Below, one piece after another: positions 34,235 to 42,905 of a stretch of DNA of 43,589 bases; position 1 is the stretch's first letter, and the number at the start of each line of letters is the position of its first letter. The DNA is taken from positions 1 through 43,589 of the forward strand of contig JAFXPV010000094.1 of the NCBI GenBank assembly GCA_017527625.1, written 5' to 3'. This stretch comes from Bacteroidales bacterium. GTDB lineage: Bacteria > Bacteroidota > Bacteroidia > Bacteroidales > UBA932. Below the pieces are notes generated by a model. That model was not told where the DNA came from and did no database searches. It was given only the letters and a program-made list of their open reading frames with translations. A program made the position numbers and the translations under genes.

Positions 34235-36214
34235 ATGAAAAGACATGTTCTCATTGTATTGAGCATGGCAGCTATGCTGTTGTCTCAAAGCGTCAACGCA
34301 AAAGTCACACTCCCCAAGATGATCAGCGACGGCCTCATCCTGCAGCGTGACCAGCCCGCACGCATCTGGGGTTTTGCCGACCCTCAGGAAAGAGTCACCG
34401 TTACATTCGACGGGAACACTTACAACGCCAGAGCCGACCGCAACGGCAACTGGCTCGTTGTCCTTCCCTCAACTTCCTGGGACGGGAAGACATATACCAT
34501 AAAAGTCAATGACATCGAAGTGCACAACGTCGTGTTCGGAGATGTCTGGGTATTTTCCGGCCAGTCTAATATGCAGACTCCGCTGGAGCGTGCCCTGGAC
34601 CTCTACGGCGACGATGTCCTGCATTATACCAATCCTCTCATCCGCGAGTTCCTCGTTGGTGAGAAATATGCTTATGACGGTCCCCAGAAGGATTTCGCAT
34701 CGGGTACGTGGAAGGAAGTCGACCCTGTCAACTGTCTCAAGATGTCGATGATTCCCTATTTCTTCGCCCGCAAGATATACGATACCTACCAGGTGCCCGT
34801 AGCCATCATCCAGTGTGCTGTCGGCGGTACTGCCATCGAGAGCTGGATGAGCCCTGACGACCTGAAGGACTATCCTCAGTACGCTGAGGCCCTCGAAGCC
34901 CAGCGCAATCCCCAGCCGAGGAGCGGCCCTGCTTTCGGGGCGTTGTTCGGGAACAGGCCGACGGGCGGCGGAGCTGCCGCGGAACGTCCGGTAGAGAATC
35001 CTGCCTATTATGCTGCTGATTTCGACGACTCGGAGTGGGCTCCGGCCTATCTGCCTCATTACTTCAGGGAGGTCGGCATCACCGGCAGCGCTTTGATCTA
35101 TTACAGACACGACCTCTGGCTGACTGCCGAGCAGGCTGCATCCAAGAACAATCTGCTCAAGCTCGGAACCATCACCCAGGCCGACGAGACTTTCATCAAC
35201 GGCGTCAGGGTCGGAACCACCGGATATGAATATCCGCCGCGCAACTACGCTTTCGGCGAAGGCATTCTCAAGGAAGGCAAAAATGTGATATGTATCAAAA
35301 TCAACGGTGCCAATGCCAACGGCGGCTTCTATGAGGACGAGCAGTACCGTCTCCGCCTCGACAAGGACACCATCTCTCTCAATGACGGCTGGAAGTTCTT
35401 CAAAGAAGACATTCCCAGCAACTTTGCAAGGCCCGGCGGAGCTCCTGCGGAACGTCCTGTCGTAATGCAGTACACTGAAAGGGAGATTAAGCACTCCTCT
35501 ATGGTCCGCACCCCCTTCGGTCTGTACTGGGGTATGCTGAAACCTGTCACAAATGCCAACGTGAAAGGTGTAGTATGGTATCAGGGCGAAACCAACAGCG
35601 GCAATACTCCGGAATACGGCACTTTCCTGGCCAGGATGATGAAGACCTGGAGCAAGGATTTCCGCAACAACAATATGCCGGTGATCATCTGCCAGCTCGC
35701 AAGCCACCAGGCAAAGACCTTCCTGCCCGTGCAGGACGGCTGGGCCAACGTCCGTGAGGGACAGAGGCTTGCCACCCATATGCTTCCCAACGCCGCACTG
35801 GCAGTAGCGTGCGACATCGGTACGTGGAACAACATCCACCCCATCAACAAGAAACCGGTGGCCGAGAGAGTCGCCAAGGCTGCGATGAGGACTGCCTACG
35901 GTGAGACAGTGGTCCTTTCTCCGGAATGCACCAAGGCTGAACTCAAGGACGGAAGGGTTTACCTCACTTTCAGTGAAATAGGCAACGGCCTTGTCATCAA
36001 GGGAGACGAGATCAAGGGCTTCGCAGTATCTGACGAAAACGGGGTCTACCAGCGCGTCAATGCCACCATCCTTGGCAACAGGGTTGTCCTCTATGTCGGC
36101 GGCATCAAGAATCCCAAGAAAGTCCGCTTCCTGTGGAAAAACTACGTCCGTGAAGATGTAACCCTCTACAACGCCGAAGGAATGCCGGCTTCTCCTTTCG
36201 AGATCGCTCTCTAA
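34235..36214 (+). CDS. Sialate O-acetylesterase, SGNH type
   Basis: 659-residue secreted enzyme (signal peptide ending SVNAK) that removes O-acetyl groups from sialic acids or, in relatives, from other glycans. It begins with the family-typical KVTLPKMISDGLILQRDQPARIWG. The SGNH block I is FSGQSNM with nucleophile S111. An inserted jelly-roll-like segment (about residues 240-385, WAPAYLPHYFREVGITGSALIYYRHDL... and WKFF) resembles a GH2-type sugar-binding domain. Then come GVVWYQGETNSGN and the late IGTWNNIHPINK, with the catalytic His-Pro. No sialidase or SusCD genes are present. Confidence 0.93.
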   Translation: MKRHVLIVLSMAAMLLSQSVNAKVTLPKMISDGLILQRDQPARIWGFADPQERVTVTFDGNTYNARADRNGNWLVVLPSTSWDGKTYTIKVNDIEVHNVVFGDVWVFSGQSNMQTPLERALDLYGDDVLHYTNPLIREFLVGEKYAYDGPQKDFASGTWKEVDPVNCLKMSMIPYFFARKIYDTYQVPVAIIQCAVGGTAIESWMSPDDLKDYPQYAEALEAQRNPQPRSGPAFGALFGNRPTGGGAAAERPVENPAYYAADFDDSEWAPAYLPHYFREVGITGSALIYYRHDLWLTAEQAASKNNLLKLGTITQADETFINGVRVGTTGYEYPPRNYAFGEGILKEGKNVICIKINGANANGGFYEDEQYRLRLDKDTISLNDGWKFFKEDIPSNFARPGGAPAERPVVMQYTEREIKHSSMVRTPFGLYWGMLKPVTNANVKGVVWYQGETNSGNTPEYGTFLARMMKTWSKDFRNNNMPVIICQLASHQAKTFLPVQDGWANVREGQRLATHMLPNAALAVACDIGTWNNIHPINKKPVAERVAKAAMRTAYGETVVLSPECTKAELKDGRVYLTFSEIGNGLVIKGDEIKGFAVSDENGVYQRVNATILGNRVVLYVGGIKNPKKVRFLWKNYVREDVTLYNAEGMPASPFEIAL

Positions 36215-36984
36215 GCCAGCGCTTCAAACAGTCTGTCCAGGGCCTCGTCGGGGCTGCCGCTCTGCTCCAGCAGAGTGACGAATTTGCTTCCGATGATGGC
36301 CCCGGCGGCGTTTTTCTGGGCGGCCTCCAGAGTCTGACGGTTGCTTATTCCGAAGCCTATCATACGCGGATGCTTTAGGTTCATCGCGTCGATGCGGCGG
36401 AAATATTCCTGCTTGCGCTCGTCGAAGCTCTTCTGGGTGCCGGTTATCGACGCTGAACTCACCATATAGATGAAGCCGTCGGTGTTGTCGTCGATAAACC
36501 GTATCCTCTCTTCTTCTGTCTCGGGAGTGATCAGCATAATGACATATATGCCGTAGCGTCTGGCGACCGGCCGCACTTCTTCCATATAGTCCTTGAACGG
36601 CAGGTCGGGGATTATCACCCCGCTCACCCCGCTGGCCGCGCAGCTGCGGAAAAACGCTTCCACGCCATACTGCATCACCACGTTCAGGTAGCCCATCAGC
36701 ACAAGGGGGATGGACACCTCATCCTTGATTTCCTCCAGCTGAGCGAAGAGTTTGCTGATGGTCATTCCGCCACGGATGGCGTTTGTCGCCGCCGTCTGTA
36801 TCACCGGACCGTCTGCAAGCGGATCCGAGAAGGGGAAACCCACTTCGACCATAGCGATGCCGCGGCGTTCCATTGCGCGTATCACGTCTGCTGTTCCATC
36901 AAATGTGGGGTCGCCGGCGCAGAAATAGAGCGAAAGCAGTTTTTTGTCGCCACGACCTTCAAAAAGTCTGTCTATCTTGTTCAT
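36211..36984 (-). CDS. trpA: Tryptophan synthase alpha chain
   Basis: Cleaves indole-3-glycerol phosphate to indole and glyceraldehyde 3-phosphate. 257 residues; the catalytic Glu is in MVEVGFPFSDPLADGPVIQ and the catalytic Asp in IIPDLPFKDY; the phosphate site GFGIS and GAIIGSKFV are present. Last gene of the operon: 4-base overlap with trpF, and the stop overlaps the esterase gene by 4 bases on the other strand. Confidence 0.98.
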   Translation of the reverse strand: MNKIDRLFEGRGDKKLLSLYFCAGDPTFDGTADVIRAMERRGIAMVEVGFPFSDPLADGPVIQTAATNAIRGGMTISKLFAQLEEIKDEVSIPLVLMGYLNVVMQYGVEAFFRSCAASGVSGVIIPDLPFKDYMEEVRPVARRYGIYVIMLITPETEEERIRFIDDNTDGFIYMVSSASITGTQKSFDERKQEYFRRIDAMNLKHPRMIGFGISNRQTLEAAQKNAAGAIIGSKFVTLLEQSGSPDEALDRLFEALA

Positions 36985-37607
36985 TGTCTTATCTTGTCTA
37001 TAAAGGTTTTCAAAGATTCTGCATCTTTCATCCCTGGCGCAGTCTCGAAGCGGCTGTTAAGGTCGATTCCGATGCATCCGGGGGCACGGAATGCCTTGAT
37101 GCGCTCCGCGTCGCAGGGGCCTATTCCTCCGCTGAGAAGGAACGGCAGTCGCCCGGTGTAGTCCTGCAGCAGTCCCCAGTCGAACTGGCTTCCGTTGCCG
37201 CCCGGCAGTTTTCCTTTCGTGTCGAAAAGGAAGAGGTCGCACACGTTTTCAAACTGCTGAGTCTGTCCGAGATCTTCCGCCGTAGTCACCGGGATGCTCT
37301 TTATAAAGCGCATATCGGCCTTCAGACGGTCGGTCTGCTTCCTGAGATATGCTATATACTCCGGCGTTTCGTGGCCGTGAAACTGTATGCAGTCCAGACG
37401 GTACGCCTTCGCGACTGCCAGTATGTCCCTGGGGGCCGCATCCACGAAGACTCCTGCCCTCAGGCAGCTTTCCGGCAGGTAGACGGGCTGGCTGTCGACA
37501 TAGCGGCCGGAGCCGGGCCAGAAGATGAATCCCATAATGTCTACACCGAGAGCTTCCACTGCGCGTATGTTGTCTGCGTCGCGCATTCCGCATACCTTGA
37601 TTTTCAT
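36981..37607 (-). CDS. trpF: Phosphoribosylanthranilate isomerase
   Basis: A 208-residue TIM barrel. The catalytic Cys is in MKIKVCGMRDADNIRAV, and the C-terminal catalytic Asp region is LLSGGIGPCDAERI and GIDLNSRFETAPGMKD. Standalone, not fused to trpC. Overlaps trpC and trpA by 4 bases at each end, implying translational coupling. Confidence 0.97.
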   Translation of the reverse strand: MKIKVCGMRDADNIRAVEALGVDIMGFIFWPGSGRYVDSQPVYLPESCLRAGVFVDAAPRDILAVAKAYRLDCIQFHGHETPEYIAYLRKQTDRLKADMRFIKSIPVTTAEDLGQTQQFENVCDLFLFDTKGKLPGGNGSQFDWGLLQDYTGRLPFLLSGGIGPCDAERIKAFRAPGCIGIDLNSRFETAPGMKDAESLKTFIDKIRQ

Positions 37608-38392
37608 AGTTCCGCGATCAATTGTCCGAGTGCCGCCCCGGGGTCATTCTCCTTCATAAGCATCCCGCCGATGAGGAAGCCTCTGAATCCGCATTCCCTC
37701 AGTTCTTTCAGGGTCTGAGGCCTGCTGATGCCGCTTTCGCTGACCTTCACGGCGCCTGAAGGCAGTTTTTCAGCCAGGCGGAAACTGTTTCCGACATCCG
37801 TCACAAATGTGCCGAGGTTACGGTTGTTGATGCCGCACATATCCGGTCCCAGCTCCGCATATTCCAGTTCCGCTTCGCTGTGCATCTCCAGCAGGACTTC
37901 GAGGCCCAGGGAGTGCGCAGTCTTCAGCAAACTGCCGCATTCAGCCTTGGTCAGCGCTGCCGCAATCAGCAGGACGGCAGAGGCGCCGCTGAGCCGTGCC
38001 AAGTATAACTGGTACTCGTCCACGATGAACTCCTTGTAAAGGATGGGCAGGGTGACTCCGCTACGACGGGCTTGCGCGATATATTCCGGGCTGCCCGCGA
38101 AATACTTTCCGTCAGCCAGGATGCTGACGGCTGCGGCTCCGTTGCGCTGATAGCTCAGGGGTATGACGGCTGCGTCGCCGTCTTCCTTTATCCAGCCTTT
38201 CGAAGGGGACTTGCGTTTGAATTCGGCTATTATGCCGCTCCCGGAGGCCAGCAGAGCCGCCACCATCGACGGCTGTGGGCCGGCGGCCATTGCGGTTTCT
38301 ACATCGCGGCGCAGGGCTGCAAGAGGCCTTTCCTGCTTCTGGGCCGCAACTTCGATACGCTTGTGGGCTATTATTTCATCAAGGATATCCAT
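37604..38392 (-). CDS. trpC: Indole-3-glycerol phosphate synthase
   Basis: 262 residues, TIM barrel. Starts MDILDEIIAHKRIEVAAQK; the active-site Lys-Ser run is IIAEFKRKSPSKGWI; EYIAQARRSG, LYKEFIVDEYQLY (Lys) and NNRNLGTFVTD (Asn) follow, and SESGI with the final Gly-rich phosphate site GGMLMKENDPGAAL ends the barrel. Separated from trpD by 6 bases. Confidence 0.97.
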   Translation of the reverse strand: MDILDEIIAHKRIEVAAQKQERPLAALRRDVETAMAAGPQPSMVAALLASGSGIIAEFKRKSPSKGWIKEDGDAAVIPLSYQRNGAAAVSILADGKYFAGSPEYIAQARRSGVTLPILYKEFIVDEYQLYLARLSGASAVLLIAAALTKAECGSLLKTAHSLGLEVLLEMHSEAELEYAELGPDMCGINNRNLGTFVTDVGNSFRLAEKLPSGAVKVSESGISRPQTLKELRECGFRGFLIGGMLMKENDPGAALGQLIAEL

Positions 38393-38398
38393 TGTGCC

Positions 38399-39394
38399 TT
38401 AGCTGTTCATTTCCACGAATTTCTTGAAATTGGCGAGGGCCTTGCCGCTTTCCAGGCTTTCGCGGGCGATATCCAGCGCCTGAAGTATGTCCAGGCCCTG
38501 GTCTACGCACTGTATTGCGACTGCCGCGTTGGCCAGCACAGTGTTCTTCTGGCCTTCGGTCGCCTTGTTTTCAAGGACGTCGTCGAATATGCCGGATGCC
38601 TCTTCTTTGGTGCGGCCTCCGAAGAGGTCGAAATCATTCGTCTGCGGCAGGTTGAAGTCTGACGGGTCGAACACTTTCTCGTACTTGTTGGTGGTGATCT
38701 TGAACGTTCCTGTCAGTGAGATTTCGTCATAGCCGTCGGTACTGTTCACAAGGGCATAGTCTACTCCCATCTTCTGGAAGACGTTGTTGTAGAGGCGCAT
38801 CTGCTCCAGCGTCGCCGTTCCCATCACGTTGCATTTCGGCTGTGAGGGATTGACCAGCGGACCTAGCAGGTTGAAGAATGTCATAAAGGGGAGTTTCTTG
38901 CGGACAGGGCCGACGAATTTCATCGCCTTGGCGTATACCTGGGCGTGGAGATATACCATATGGGTCTTTTCCATCGAGCGGTTCAGGCGGTCTTCATCAA
39001 AAGAGAACTGCACTCCGTGCATCGCCATCACATCGCTTGCTCCGGAGGTGCTGGTGCTGGCATAGTTGCCGTGCTTGGCCACATTGTAACCTGCTCCGGC
39101 CACTACTGCGCAGGCGCAGGTGGAGATATTGAAGGTGTTCTTCATATCGCCGCCGGTTCCGACGATGTCGACATACCGGTCTGCATCGAGTTTTACGGAC
39201 AGGCCGGTCTCAAGGATGCCGTCGCGGAAGCCCAGCAGTTCGTCTACGGTGATGCCGCGGAGCTGGAGCATACTCATCAGGGAGGCCAGCTGCTCACTGG
39301 GATATTTTTCTTGTGTGATGTTGATAAGGATGTCGTGCGTTTCTTCGCGTGACAGGTACTCGTGGTTGAGTACTTCTTCCAGGTACTTTTTCAT
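38399..39394 (-). CDS. trpD: Anthranilate phosphoribosyltransferase
   Basis: 331 residues. Adds phosphoribose from PRPP to anthranilate. Signatures are DIVGTGGDMKNTFNIST (PRPP loop), KHGNYASTSTSGASDVM, FFNLLGPLVNP and the Mg site TDGYDEIS. Unfused to trpG. 6-base gap to trpG and to trpC. Confidence 0.98.
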   Translation of the reverse strand: MKKYLEEVLNHEYLSREETHDILINITQEKYPSEQLASLMSMLQLRGITVDELLGFRDGILETGLSVKLDADRYVDIVGTGGDMKNTFNISTCACAVVAGAGYNVAKHGNYASTSTSGASDVMAMHGVQFSFDEDRLNRSMEKTHMVYLHAQVYAKAMKFVGPVRKKLPFMTFFNLLGPLVNPSQPKCNVMGTATLEQMRLYNNVFQKMGVDYALVNSTDGYDEISLTGTFKITTNKYEKVFDPSDFNLPQTNDFDLFGGRTKEEASGIFDDVLENKATEGQKNTVLANAAVAIQCVDQGLDILQALDIARESLESGKALANFKKFVEMNS

Positions 39395-39400
39395 AGCAGG

Positions 39401-39967
39401 TTATTGTTTATCGATGAAATTCTTGATTATTACTGTTCCGTCAGGGGTCAGGACGCTCTCGGGGTGGAACTGGATGCCGTGGATGTCGTACTGACGGTGG
39501 CGCAGGGCCATTATCTGACCTTCGTCGCTCTGCGCCGTTATCTCCAGGCAGTCCGGGAAGTTGTCTTTGCTGACCACCCAGCTGTGGTAGCGGCCCATCA
39601 CTATTCTTTCGGGAAGGCCGCTGAAGATGTAGTCGTTGCCTGCCTGGCTGCCTTCGGTGGCTACACCGTGGAATACGTCGCTCAGGTTCTCGAGTTTTCC
39701 GCCAAAGACTTCTCCTATGGCCTGATGGCCGAGGCAAACGCCCAGCATCGGCTTGCGACCTGCGTAGCTGCGGATTACGTCGAGCAGCAGACCCGCCTCC
39801 GAAGGAATGCCCGGGCCAGGCGAGAGGATTATCTTGTCGAACTTTTCCAGTTGGGACATCTCGAAGCGGTCGTTGCGGTAGACCGTCACCTGGGCTCCCA
39901 GGGACTTCACCAGATGGGAAAGGTTGTAGGTGAAGCTGTCGTAATTGTCTATGATAACTATTTTCAT
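39401..39967 (-). CDS. trpG: Anthranilate synthase glutamine amidotransferase subunit
   Basis: 188-residue class I glutaminase supplying ammonia to TrpE. Begins VIIDNYDSFTYNL; the oxyanion region is LSPGPGIPSEAG; the nucleophile Cys is in GVCLGHQAIGEVFGG; the His and Glu of the triad are in GIQFHPESVLTPDG. 4 bases after trpE. A p-aminobenzoate role (pabA) is possible in shared form. Confidence 0.98.
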   Translation of the reverse strand: MKIVIIDNYDSFTYNLSHLVKSLGAQVTVYRNDRFEMSQLEKFDKIILSPGPGIPSEAGLLLDVIRSYAGRKPMLGVCLGHQAIGEVFGGKLENLSDVFHGVATEGSQAGNDYIFSGLPERIVMGRYHSWVVSKDNFPDCLEITAQSDEGQIMALRHRQYDIHGIQFHPESVLTPDGTVIIKNFIDKQ

Positions 39968-39971
39968 TGTC

Positions 39972-41372
39972 TTACATATTTTCGGCCATCAGAATCGCTC
40001 TGCGAAGCGCGTTGAGTTTGTTGTTGACTTCCTGGAGTTCATATTCTTCGTTGCTGCGGGCGACTATCCCGCCTCCGGCCTGGAACCAGAGTTCGTTGTT
40101 GCGGCTGACGAAGGTCCGGATGGTTATCGCCTGGTTGAGGCTTCCGTCAAGGCCGATGTATCCGATGCAGCCGCCGTACGCGCCTCTGTTGTGGGGTTCG
40201 TATTCGCTGATGAGCTGCATCGCCCTCACCTTCGGAGCGCCGCTCAGTGTGCCGGCCGGAAATGTGTCCATAAACGCTTTCACGGGGTCTGCATCGTCGT
40301 CAAGCTCGCCGCTCACGCGTGATACGAGGTGTATGACGTGGCTGTAGTACTGGAGGTCCTTGTAGAATTCGACTTTCACGTCGTGACAGTTGCGGCTCAA
40401 GTCGTTGCGCGCCAGATCCACCAGCATTACGTGCTCTGCGTTTTCTTTGGGATCGTTGCGCAGGAATTCTGCGCCTGCTGCGTCTTCTTCGCGGTTTCCA
40501 GTCCGCTTTGTCGTGCCGGCTATAGGGTCGATATAGGCTCTGCGGCCTTCGATGCGGCAGTGGGTTTCGGGGGATGAGCCGAAGATGCGGAAGCCTCCGA
40601 AGTCGAAATAGAAAAGGTAGGGGCTGGGATTGATGCTTCTCAGCGCCCTGTAAAGCTTGAAGTCATCTCCTTCGTATTTCTGCACGAAGCGGCGTGACAG
40701 CACGATTTGGAATACGTCTCCGCGCAGGCAGTGGGCTATTCCTTTCCGTACGTTGGCTTTATGTTCTTCGTCGCTTATTGTGGACGTGGTCTCTCCTACC
40801 GGATGGAAGCCGTAGGGATTGACATTGGTGCGGTTCATCTCCTGGTCTATCTTCGCCAGGCCGCTCTTCTCTCCTTCTTTCATCAGTTCTACCATCACCA
40901 TCGTGTTGTTGAAGTGGTCGAACATTATTACGTACTTGTAGAGTATGTAAAGGATGTCGGGAGCGTCGTTCCTGGCCTGGGTCTCGTCTTTGACCTGGAT
41001 GTTTTCGAGATAGCGCACTGCGTTGAATGTCATATAGCCGTACAGACCGCACATATTGCTGTATTCGCCCTTCACGTCGAAGCTGCGTATGAATTCGTTG
41101 ACTGCCATATCTGCCGTATAGTCGTCCGCCAGGGGCTTGCGCATCCTGCTGCCGTCGGGATAGTTTGCTACTGCTACTCCGTGTTCCACGGCTACGCTTG
41201 CTATCGGGGCGATGCCGATGAAGGACCTGGAGTTCTCGCCGCTGTGGTAGTCGCTTGACTCCATCAGGGCCGACTGGGGATAAAGGTCGCGGAGTTTCAT
41301 ATATACTGAAACTGGCGTATGGAGGTCTGCCAGACGTTTGCGGGCGTTGGTGGTGTATTTAAAAGTTTCCAT
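39972..41372 (-). CDS. trpE: Anthranilate synthase component I
   Basis: 466-residue chorismate-binding enzyme. The catalytic C-terminal half carries DPIAGTTKRTGNREED, MLVDLARNDLSRN, SGELDDDADPVKAFMDTFPAGTLSGAPKVRAMQLI and GGGIVARSNEEYELQE. The N-terminal part contains ALMESSDYHSGENSRSFIG, corresponding to the LLES-type tryptophan feedback site. Overlaps the end of trpB by 14 bases. Confidence 0.98.
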   Translation of the reverse strand: METFKYTTNARKRLADLHTPVSVYMKLRDLYPQSALMESSDYHSGENSRSFIGIAPIASVAVEHGVAVANYPDGSRMRKPLADDYTADMAVNEFIRSFDVKGEYSNMCGLYGYMTFNAVRYLENIQVKDETQARNDAPDILYILYKYVIMFDHFNNTMVMVELMKEGEKSGLAKIDQEMNRTNVNPYGFHPVGETTSTISDEEHKANVRKGIAHCLRGDVFQIVLSRRFVQKYEGDDFKLYRALRSINPSPYLFYFDFGGFRIFGSSPETHCRIEGRRAYIDPIAGTTKRTGNREEDAAGAEFLRNDPKENAEHVMLVDLARNDLSRNCHDVKVEFYKDLQYYSHVIHLVSRVSGELDDDADPVKAFMDTFPAGTLSGAPKVRAMQLISEYEPHNRGAYGGCIGYIGLDGSLNQAITIRTFVSRNNELWFQAGGGIVARSNEEYELQEVNNKLNALRRAILMAENM

Positions 41373-42561
41373 ATTCTGCAGCCATTTCTTTGTTCTTGAG
41401 ATAGGTCTCGACGTCTTTGTCGCCGCGGCCGCTTACCGTGAGGACGACTATGTCGTCGGGGCGGAAGCTTATCTTGCTCAGGGCCGCTATCGCGTGGGCG
41501 CTCTCGATTGCTGGTATTATGCCTTCGAGGCGGGTCATTTCGTAGCCTGCATAGATTGCTTCGTCGTCGTTTATGGCGAGCACCTTCGTGCGGCCCTGTT
41601 TTGCCATATTGCAGTGCATCGGTCCTACTCCGGGATAATCCAGGCCGGCGGAGATTGAGAATGCTTCTTCGATCTGGCCGTCGGGGGTCTGCATTACGAG
41701 CATCTTGGAGCCGTGGAGGATGCCTGTGCGGCCGCGGTGGATGGTTGCTGCCGTGTAGCCTGAATCTACGCCGTGGCCTCCGGCTTCGGCCAGGACGATT
41801 TTGACTCTGTCGTCATCCATATAGTGATAGATGGTTCCTGCTGCGTTGCTGCCGCCGCCGATGCAGGCTATCAGGTAGTCGGGGTAGTCGCGGCCTGTCT
41901 TTTCCAGCAGCTGGGTCTTGATTTCTTCTGAGATTACGCTCTGGAGCTTTGCTACGAGGTCCGGATATGGATGGGGGCCCATCGTCGAGCCTACCAGGTA
42001 ATATGTGTCTGAAGGATGGCAGCACCAGTCCCGGATGGCGGCGGAGCAGGCGTCGCTGAGGGTCATATTGCCTGTCGTCACCGGATTGACTTTTGCACCA
42101 AGCATACGCATTCGTTCTACGTTGGTATGCTGGCGTTCTACGTCGGTCTTACCCATAAATATCTCGCATTGCATTCCCATCAGGGCGCACACTGTGGCTG
42201 TCGCGACTCCGTGTTGTCCTGCGCCGGTCTCGGCTATCACGCGGGTCTTGCCCATCTTACGGGCCAGCAGGATCTGTCCGATGGCATTGTTGATCTTGTG
42301 GGCTCCTGTATGGTTGCAGTCTTCGCGTTTGAGGTAGAGTCGGCAGCCGTACTTACGGCTCATCCGGTCTGCATAGTACAGCGGCGAAGGTCTGCCTGCA
42401 TAGTCCAGCAGCAGCCGATGGTACTCTTTATTGAACTCTTCGCTTTGGATTACCGGCAGGTAGGCTTTCCTCAGTTCATCTACGCACTTGTAGAGTATCT
42501 CGGGGATATAGGCTCCTCCAAATTCGCCGTAGAATCCGTTTTCATCTACTTGGTAACTCAT
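41359..42561 (-). CDS. trpB: Tryptophan synthase beta chain
   Basis: PLP enzyme condensing indole with serine. 400 residues, TrpB1 type. PLP Lys is K89 in HTGAHKINNAIGQ; catalytic Glu region is AETGAGQHGVATA; the phosphate-binding GGGSNAAG and the Ser-PLP pyridine-site segment near the C-terminus (LTVSGRGDKD) are intact. First structural gene of the operon; the trp leader with attenuator lies directly upstream. Confidence 0.98.
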   Translation of the reverse strand: MSYQVDENGFYGEFGGAYIPEILYKCVDELRKAYLPVIQSEEFNKEYHRLLLDYAGRPSPLYYADRMSRKYGCRLYLKREDCNHTGAHKINNAIGQILLARKMGKTRVIAETGAGQHGVATATVCALMGMQCEIFMGKTDVERQHTNVERMRMLGAKVNPVTTGNMTLSDACSAAIRDWCCHPSDTYYLVGSTMGPHPYPDLVAKLQSVISEEIKTQLLEKTGRDYPDYLIACIGGGSNAAGTIYHYMDDDRVKIVLAEAGGHGVDSGYTAATIHRGRTGILHGSKMLVMQTPDGQIEEAFSISAGLDYPGVGPMHCNMAKQGRTKVLAINDDEAIYAGYEMTRLEGIIPAIESAHAIAALSKISFRPDDIVVLTVSGRGDKDVETYLKNKEMAAEYGNF

Positions 42562-42595: not shown

Positions 42596-42624
42596 AAAAA
42601 AAGCCTGTCGTGATTACGACAGGC
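42596..42624 (-). terminator. trp attenuator terminator hairpin
   Basis: In the minus-strand RNA GCCUGUCGU (42624-42616) pairs perfectly with ACGACAGGC (42611-42603) across a 4-base loop and runs into seven Us (42602-42596). It lies 35 bases before trpB and 40 bases after the leader peptide stop, as in ribosome-mediated attenuation. Confidence 0.92.
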
Positions 42625-42658
42625 CTTCGATGGTATTTGATTAGTTTACACGGCTGCA

Positions 42659-42691
42659 GCGTCTCACGAATTTTTAATCCTTGAGTCACGC
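42659..42691 (-). promoter_or_regulatory. trp attenuator regions 1 and 2
   Basis: RNA region 1 (GCGUGACUCA, 42691-42682) begins at the last Trp codon; region 2 (UGAGACGC, 42666-42659) starts with the stop codon. They pair as GCGU/ACGC and CUCA/UGAG with a 2-base bulge. Region 2 continues into GCAGCC (to 42652), which can instead pair with the terminator 5' arm with two bulges. Pairings found by eye. Confidence 0.6.
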
Positions 42692-42717
42692 CACCACCAT
42701 GAAAAACGAGTCATCAT
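42664..42717 (-). CDS. trpL: trp operon leader peptide (17 residues, three consecutive Trp)
   Basis: The minus-strand frame from ATG at 42717 reads MMTRFSWWWRDSRIKNS and ends TGA at 42664-42666. Trp codons 7-9 (TGG TGG TGG) lie at 42699-42691. A -33/-7 promoter lies 23 bases upstream of the ATG, and an intrinsic terminator plus trpB lie downstream. Low charged tRNA-Trp would stall the ribosome at codons 7-9 and favour readthrough. The position, Trp run and paired hairpins make this a regulatory, non-enzymatic peptide. The second ATG (42714) could also be used. Confidence 0.9.
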   Translation of the reverse strand: MMTRFSWWWRDSRIKNS

Positions 42718-42739
42718 TTCTTGCTTTGTTTTGTTGTCA

Positions 42740-42769
42740 CAAAGATAGAGAATAATCAACTCTCCGCAA
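42740..42769 (-). promoter_or_regulatory. trp operon promoter
   Basis: Minus strand: TTG (42769-42767), 19-base spacer, TATCTTTG (42747-42740). Both boxes and the spacing fit the Bacteroidota consensus. Predicted start is near 42734, giving a leader of about 173 bases before trpB. Confidence 0.8.
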
Positions 42770-42905
42770 CACTTTATTACAATTAATAAATAATTTGAAA
42801 CAATTATATGATACATTCCAGTATCAATTGTCCATCAGTGAAAAGAAGCAGTATCATTTTGCATTACTGTGTACAATATTGATACAGGCCACAGCTCAAA
42901 ACCCG

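Follow-up and report, generated by a model that had tools for sequence, protein, structure and literature searches.

A probable ribosome-mediated trp attenuator of the Escherichia coli type, with three consecutive Trp codons, before a trpBEGDCFA operon of a Bacteroidales bacterium

The trp leader of Escherichia coli, trpL, lies before the trp genes and encodes a peptide with a Trp run (two adjacent Trp codons), followed by a 1:2 hairpin, a 2:3 antiterminator and a 3:4 terminator with a U run. Enterobacteria are where amino-acid attenuation was elucidated; for Bacteroidota, Rfam returned a single family here, an in-silico trp leader whose model ends before the switching part. Bacteroid-trp (RF01692), as this family is called, is tabulated by Weinberg et al. 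2010 (PMC2864571) among the Bacteroidetes motifs that are probably cis-regulatory but not riboswitches, and a 2019 paper notes it upstream of the Flavobacterium psychrophilum trp operon, drawing a comparison with the leader of E. coli. For Bacteroides thetaiotaomicron, a transcriptome map describes long 5′ untranslated regions with short open reading frames (ORFs) resembling attenuation leaders, tryptophan going unmentioned in that account. No experimental test of a Bacteroidota trp leader was found in the open-access literature. A further system of similar layout, the trpB motif (RF04312), has been reported from Firmicutes and Fusobacteria; like the leader described below, it has a first hairpin whose right shoulder holds the antiterminator, with a terminator after it (PMC11109978).

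The window, which is the whole stretch of 43,589 nucleotides that was analysed, carries on its minus strand (36211–42561) a trpB-E-G-D-C-F-A operon whose genes were named by NCBIfam: trpB (41359–42561; TIGR00263, 562.8 bits, cut-off 392), trpE (39972–41372; best model TIGR00564, 421.6 bits, below the cut-off of 517.7), trpG (39401–39967; TIGR00566, 192.5 bits, cut-off 121), trpD (38399–39394; TIGR01245, 279.3 bits, cut-off 199), trpC (37604–38392; NF001377, 286.7 bits, cut-off 260), trpF (36981–37607; best model NF002295, 156.5 bits, below the cut-off of 216) and trpA (36211–36984; TIGR00262, 219.1 bits, cut-off 102). The seven-gene trp operon named in the original prediction was thus recovered, trpE and trpF through best models below cut-off. 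Upstream of trpB on the same strand are arranged, in order, a Bacteroidota-type promoter (42770–42740), a leader ORF, a hairpin and finally a terminator that ends in seven U. An Rfam scan of the whole window at the gathering threshold returned one tRNA and nothing else.

The promoter consists of a −7 box, TATCTTTG (42740–42747, minus strand; pattern TAnnTTTG), and a −33-like box, GTTG (42767–42770, minus strand), 19 nt upstream of it, both read from the sequence; the consensus of the −33 box is TTTG. In an alignment of 75 leaders (A1), comprising that of the window and 74 relatives picked by the motif TGGTGG, a TAnnTTTG box is present in 74, no more than 110 nt ahead of the Trp codons (median distance 52 nt), and at least 66 of these 74 have a TTG-containing tetramer at the −33 offset (among the 72 listed). 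The promoter predicted upstream of the leader ORF is accordingly present and of a widely kept type. A generic promoter and terminator scan (sigma-70 hexamers, with its own stem and tail limits) listed neither the leader promoter nor the terminator, and was set aside; its patterns are not built for Bacteroidota promoters.

The leader peptide ORF, MMTRFSWWWRDSRIKNS (42664–42717, minus strand, stop included; 17 codons), begins with ATG at 42717, has a second ATG at 42714 and ends with a TGA stop at 42666–42664, approximately 100 nt before the start of trpB. Three consecutive TGG codons (42691–42699, minus strand), the putative sensor, overlap region 1 of the leader, and direct reading agrees with the 17-residue frame and the Trp codons first proposed. 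A Shine–Dalgarno sequence is not evident, again as first described, but starts of this kind are commonplace in Bacteroidota; Kozak-like sequences have reportedly been studied in Flavobacterium johnsoniae.

The predicted fold of the leader RNA (42738–42592) has a z-score of −4.4, and none of 200 shuffles folded equally well. Its minimum-energy structure contains a region 1:2 sequestering hairpin (42649–42701, minus strand), in which an outer stem pairs 42701–42688 with 42662–42649 around an inner hairpin (42685–42663). This stem begins at 42701, just before the first Trp codon, and not at the last Trp codon as had been claimed. Region 2 (42652–42667, minus strand), the antiterminator strand assigned from predicted pairing and alignment, holds the stop codon. 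Region 3 (42610–42625, minus strand), its partner over 13 predicted pairs, is made up of the terminator 5′ arm, the loop and the start of the 3′ arm, so that the alternative pairing originally proposed between region 2 and the terminator arm does appear in predicted folds (42667–42652 with 42625–42610) but is longer than the arm alone and includes the terminator loop. The region 3:4 terminator hairpin (42599–42628, minus strand), which has an AAUC loop, is supported by a predicted fold and by two-sided changes in the alignment; it is followed by a T7 tract (42596–42602, minus strand) read from the sequence. Here the proposed nine-base terminator with seven U holds for the G+C-rich core of nine pairs (42624–42616 with 42611–42603) and for the T tract, but the predicted stem reaches 13 pairs. 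Runs of six to eight T are found in all seven leaders of the window’s type.

The window leader thus resembles trpL in its Trp-run peptide, its predicted 1:2, 2:3 and 3:4 pairings and its U run, and differs in having three adjacent Trp codons rather than two, a stop codon inside region 2, a Bacteroidota promoter, no evident Shine–Dalgarno sequence and trpB as the first gene. The features of the class are found together: a putative Trp-codon ORF before trp genes, mutually exclusive predicted 1:2, 2:3 and 3:4 pairings, and a terminator with a U tract. We are highly confident that it is a ribosome-mediated transcription attenuator of trpBEGDCFA, of the E. coli type. With ample charged tRNA-Trp, a ribosome would pass the three Trp codons, reach the UGA at 42666–42664 and cover region 2, whereupon the terminator (42628–42596) would form and transcription would end before trpB. 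With charged tRNA-Trp scarce, the ribosome would stall on the Trp codons, covering region 1, and the freed region 2 (42667–42652) would pair with 42625–42610 before region 4 exists, allowing the polymerase to continue. If the leader were not translated, region 1 would hold region 2 and the terminator would form.

Conservation was assessed by a TrpB search of genome contigs, from which the best 80 of 253 confirmed loci were kept. Among these 80, an ORF with at least two adjacent Trp codons precedes trpB in 74 and one with three in 71, the latter counted as ORFs of 7–45 codons within 320 nt before trpB; the background for three Trp codons is 1 of 1,376 windows, and 0 of 60 regions upstream of hisG or ilvD. 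The six of the best 80 loci in which no leader ORF adjoins trpB (L007, L063, L068, L076, L077 and L080) have trpA and further trp genes immediately upstream of trpB, which is not the first gene. In two of them (L076 and L080) the leader was found before trpD, the first gene of the operon; the other four sequences begin inside or at trpD, leaving the region upstream of the first gene outside view. The first of the three Trp codons is TGG in 72 of the 75 aligned leaders, and one leader of the window’s type (L004) reads GWW in place of WWW; the second and third codons are invariant, which is not independent evidence, the leaders having been chosen by TGGTGG. All seven leaders of the window’s type retain the ORF, the hairpin, the terminator and the T tract.

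The consensus fold of the alignment (RNAalifold) comprises the inner hairpin and the terminator, with 22 pairs, 10 of which show two-sided changes; columns 42 and 60 of the inner hairpin, for instance, form A–U in 55 of 75 leaders and G–C in 20. The outer 1:2 stem of the window fold is absent from this consensus. On aligning the leaders of relatives, both the Trp run and the hairpins thus proved to be conserved, as the original prediction demanded. In 50 of 75 leaders, including all seven of the window’s type, the stop codon falls in a single column within region 2; it lies at hairpin columns 50–53 in 20 and at columns 66–68 in 5; leader types whose UGA is altered by a compensating base change have their stop at those other columns.

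The antiterminator pairing was assessed over the same 75 leaders. The 2:3 duplex has a mean energy of −19.5 kcal/mol, compared with −11.9 kcal/mol when region 2 is shuffled, and it beats 95% of shuffles in 65 leaders, 10 falling short. In the 16-pair consensus register used for the alignment test, 82.6% of cells are paired, compared with 30.5–56.6% for slides of one to three columns and with 79.7% when partners are dealt anew among leaders. Column-wise covariation of this pairing is weak: two-sided changes occur in 3 pairs, compared with 3.6 in shuffles and 6 in the +3 slide. Swapping region 3 across leaders does not discriminate: the mean changes from −19.5 to −18.0 kcal/mol, on average 40% of foreign regions 3 being equal or better; pairing is not always weakened, the window type having −17.4 kcal/mol with its own region 3 and −18.0 kcal/mol with that of type A. 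The terminator loop, which is unpaired in the terminator, varies along with region 2: TGAGAA in region 2 is found in 45 leaders, 44 of which have a TTCTT loop, and the loop occurs in 3 of the other 30 (counts uncorrected for kinship). Leader types were sorted by terminator loop, and near-invariance of the loop within type A is therefore circular. The alignment thus defines a candidate switch, in which region 2, with the stop codon inside it, would engage the terminator arm together with the loop.

Among the 48 leaders of type A (TTCTT-type loop), the longest T run within 12 nt after the hairpin core is four or fewer in 32. With so short a T tract, termination there may need a factor or differ mechanistically.

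A peptide motif, RxSR, is conserved after the W run in many relatives, and its Ser codon lies in the hairpin, reading TCA or TCG in 75 of 75 leaders, with AGA or AGG as the next codon in 71 and GGA in 4 (one of the 75 leaders has this triplet outside its reading frame). Such a conserved peptide, like the short T tract of many type-A relatives, would suit a leader ORF that works through translation, by coupling to trpB or by a nascent-peptide stall of the TnaC kind, and not through transcription termination. We consider this very unlikely, because the leader stop is about 100 nt from the start of trpB, the leaders of the window’s type have six to eight T, and the bases of the Ser codon and the next codon form the inner hairpin, so that RNA pairing fits their conservation better than peptide selection does.

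The predicted switch was modelled by folding the RNA up to the terminator loop with a ribosome assumed to occupy 14 nt counted from the A-site codon. Pairing of region 3 with region 2 (value above 0.5) is seen in 68, 73 and 73 of 75 leaders when the ribosome is stalled at the first, second and third Trp codon, respectively, in 6 of 75 with no ribosome, and in 2 of 75 when it has reached the stop codon, the last figure being partly by construction, as region 2 is then covered. The original prediction called for folding with and without region 1 available, and in these models its masking by a stalled ribosome frees region 2 for the terminator 5′ arm. When region 1 is shuffled, the mean no-ribosome value rises from 0.08 to 0.38; when region 2 is shuffled, the value at the second Trp codon falls from 0.68 to 0.43, with 21 of 75 leaders still above 0.5. 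Adding region 4 brings the terminator into the window’s minimum-energy fold in all five states tested, stalled ribosome included; antitermination therefore has to be kinetic. The reading of the leader as a ribosome-mediated trp attenuator with E. coli logic is supported overall, the named elements being conserved and the predicted folds pairing as required. From the observed anatomy, conservation and switching of model folds we infer that ribosome stalling, its kinetics, termination and a response to tryptophan very probably operate here.

Similar putative leaders, built on other amino acids, precede other biosynthetic genes in related genomes. An ORF with three consecutive His codons lies upstream of hisG in 23 of 30 loci (L214–L243; three Trp codons in none of the 30), and one with three Val codons upstream of ilvD in 13 of 30 (L244–L273; three His or three Trp codons in none), a count that includes one ORF without a terminator-like hairpin (L264) and is otherwise 12. 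In the 1,376 background windows the corresponding numbers are 4 for His, 13 for Val and 1 for Trp, and no His-run ORF precedes trpB in any of the best 80 of 253 loci. The leader ORF is followed by a terminator-like hairpin at 21 of the 23 his loci and at 12 of the 13 ilv loci. In a similar folding model, the 5′ arm of this hairpin is paired with the preceding region (above 0.5) in 5 of the 21 his leaders and 6 of the 12 ilv leaders with no ribosome, in 16 of 21 and 12 of 12 with a stalled ribosome, and in 1 of 21 and 0 of 12 with the ribosome at the stop codon; since half of the ilv leaders are paired with no ribosome, the untranslated state is poorly explained for ilv. Within the window’s clade, all four hisG loci with upstream sequence have a leader with a run of four to six His (a fifth locus was without such sequence, and hisG was not found in one of the six genomes), and ilvD is preceded in 6 of 6 by ORFs with Ile, Leu and Val runs, by a permissive pattern. 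At the gathering threshold, Rfam gave no match in 20 his and ilv loci (11 hisG, 9 ilvD), and no paper on his attenuators in Bacteroidota was found in the open-access literature. Individual examples are His-run leader ORFs, with three to six His codons, before hisG (L190, L193, L205 and L274–L277) and Ile/Leu/Val-rich leader ORFs before ilvD (L188 and L280–L285).

The relation of the window leader to catalogued RNA families was examined with covariance models. A held-out model, built from 43 of the 68 leaders outside the window’s clade, hand-chosen to thin near-duplicates, scores the window leader at 73.9 bits, its sole full-length match in the window, and gives 69–81 bits for each of the remaining six members of the clade. 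RF01692 scores 33.2 bits on the window, below its gathering cut-off of 49, which leaves the leader outside the family as delimited by that cut-off, and reaches the cut-off in none of 19 near relatives; the leader of the Prevotella genome G001 scores 46.1. When 20 loci (the 19 near relatives and locus L085 of genome G242) were searched with Rfam at gathering, only L085 matched RF01692, with 78.1 bits at positions overlapping a 77.2-bit match of our model R1. Model R2 detects the window and L085 alike, linking the window to RF01692 through intermediate sequences. On these sequence comparisons, the window leader is a divergent relative of Bacteroid-trp, and hence of a kind already known, lying below Rfam’s own threshold. 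Both are Bacteroidetes trp leaders with a peptide ORF and a first hairpin; the Rfam model, in contrast, stops in the terminator 5′ arm and has neither terminator nor antiterminator pairs. The alignment extends the candidate switch to a branch that the Rfam cut-off misses, with his and ilv leaders indicated in related genomes. Of the 247 genomes in a phylum sample, 31 match RF01692 at E 0.01, and 24 of these exceed the cut-off.

Among other families, the proteobacterial Trp leader has no match in the window at E up to 5, and Phe_leader (15.2 bits) and Thr_leader (14 bits) fall far below their cut-offs of 55. RF04312 scores 31.3 bits (E 0.0081), below its gathering cut-off of 59 and so outside the family by that measure. 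This sub-threshold match would fit a leader that binds a ligand as a riboswitch, or a protein, its ORF being incidental; the authors of the Firmicutes motif describe it as a riboswitch candidate, while leaving a protein factor or a classic attenuator possible (PMC11109978). The score is far below the cut-off, however, the printed RF04312 consensus has by eye no Trp-codon run, and a single aptamer would not explain adjacent Trp codons before trpB in 74 of the best 80 of 253 loci together with His runs before hisG in 23 of 30, all of which makes such a reading extremely improbable beside that of a ribosome-mediated attenuator. T-box and riboswitch readings were dropped for want of Rfam matches above cut-off and because the codon pattern speaks against them; a T-box has no match in the window either at gathering or at E up to 5.

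The trp operon and the rest of the genome may differ in history. Between genomes G003 and G004, TrpB is 95% identical and GyrB 70–72%, and between G003 or G401 and the Prevotella genome G001 the values are 84% and 63–64%; G001 and G331 have 75% and 74%, and G003 and G401 differ in the opposite direction, with 90% for TrpB and 96% for GyrB. HisG identity among four clade genomes is only 58–66%. GyrB was taken as the longest ORF per locus, with G399, G402 and G313 excluded as evidently not GyrB (identities about 20–58%), and RplB, found in only 8 of 12 genomes, was left out of the comparison. These identities suggest that the operon moved horizontally together with its attenuator among rumen Bacteroidales (the window, L001–L005 and L049). 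Similarity within the window’s clade is consequently not independent evidence of selection, and the case rests on the more distant leaders. With TrpB identity well above that of GyrB between several carrier lineages, the operon may be a recent arrival, and the attenuator could have come with it in a vestigial or inactive form; this, too, we judge exceedingly doubtful, given that the parts are all intact in the window and that the seven leaders of its type keep them.

In 151 genomes of one family, model R1 has a match in 131 at E 0.1 and in 97 at E 1e-9 or better. Of the 101 genomes in which trpB is present, at least 85 have a match within 400 nt upstream of it and at least 3 more have one farther upstream in the operon, among the matches listed. 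Of the 42 matches inspected, 30 are followed by trp or trpB-like genes, 7 by hisG and 1 by ilvD; the other 4 (L187, L195, L199 and L203) were rejected by inspection as chance terminator matches, with no amino-acid-run ORF and no recognised biosynthetic gene adjoining. The names hisG and ilvD come here from reading the proteins. Taken with the his and ilv leaders and the operon comparison, it seems reasonably probable that Bacteroidales control trp, his and ilv operons by ribosome-mediated attenuation like that of E. coli, the his and ilv attenuators being uncatalogued in Rfam, and that the trp operon and its switch have spread between distant rumen lineages. The trp leader gives constructs for probing transcription–translation coupling in a phylum whose starts commonly are without Shine–Dalgarno sequences, and better annotation of gut and rumen genomes would follow.

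A second leader is present in some genomes, ahead of trpD or of a gene whose product has about 28–30% identity to the window’s TrpB. Trp leaders before such a distant TrpB-like gene or before trpD were seen in L176, L181, L182, L207 and L210, and as the second leaders in L178 and L179.
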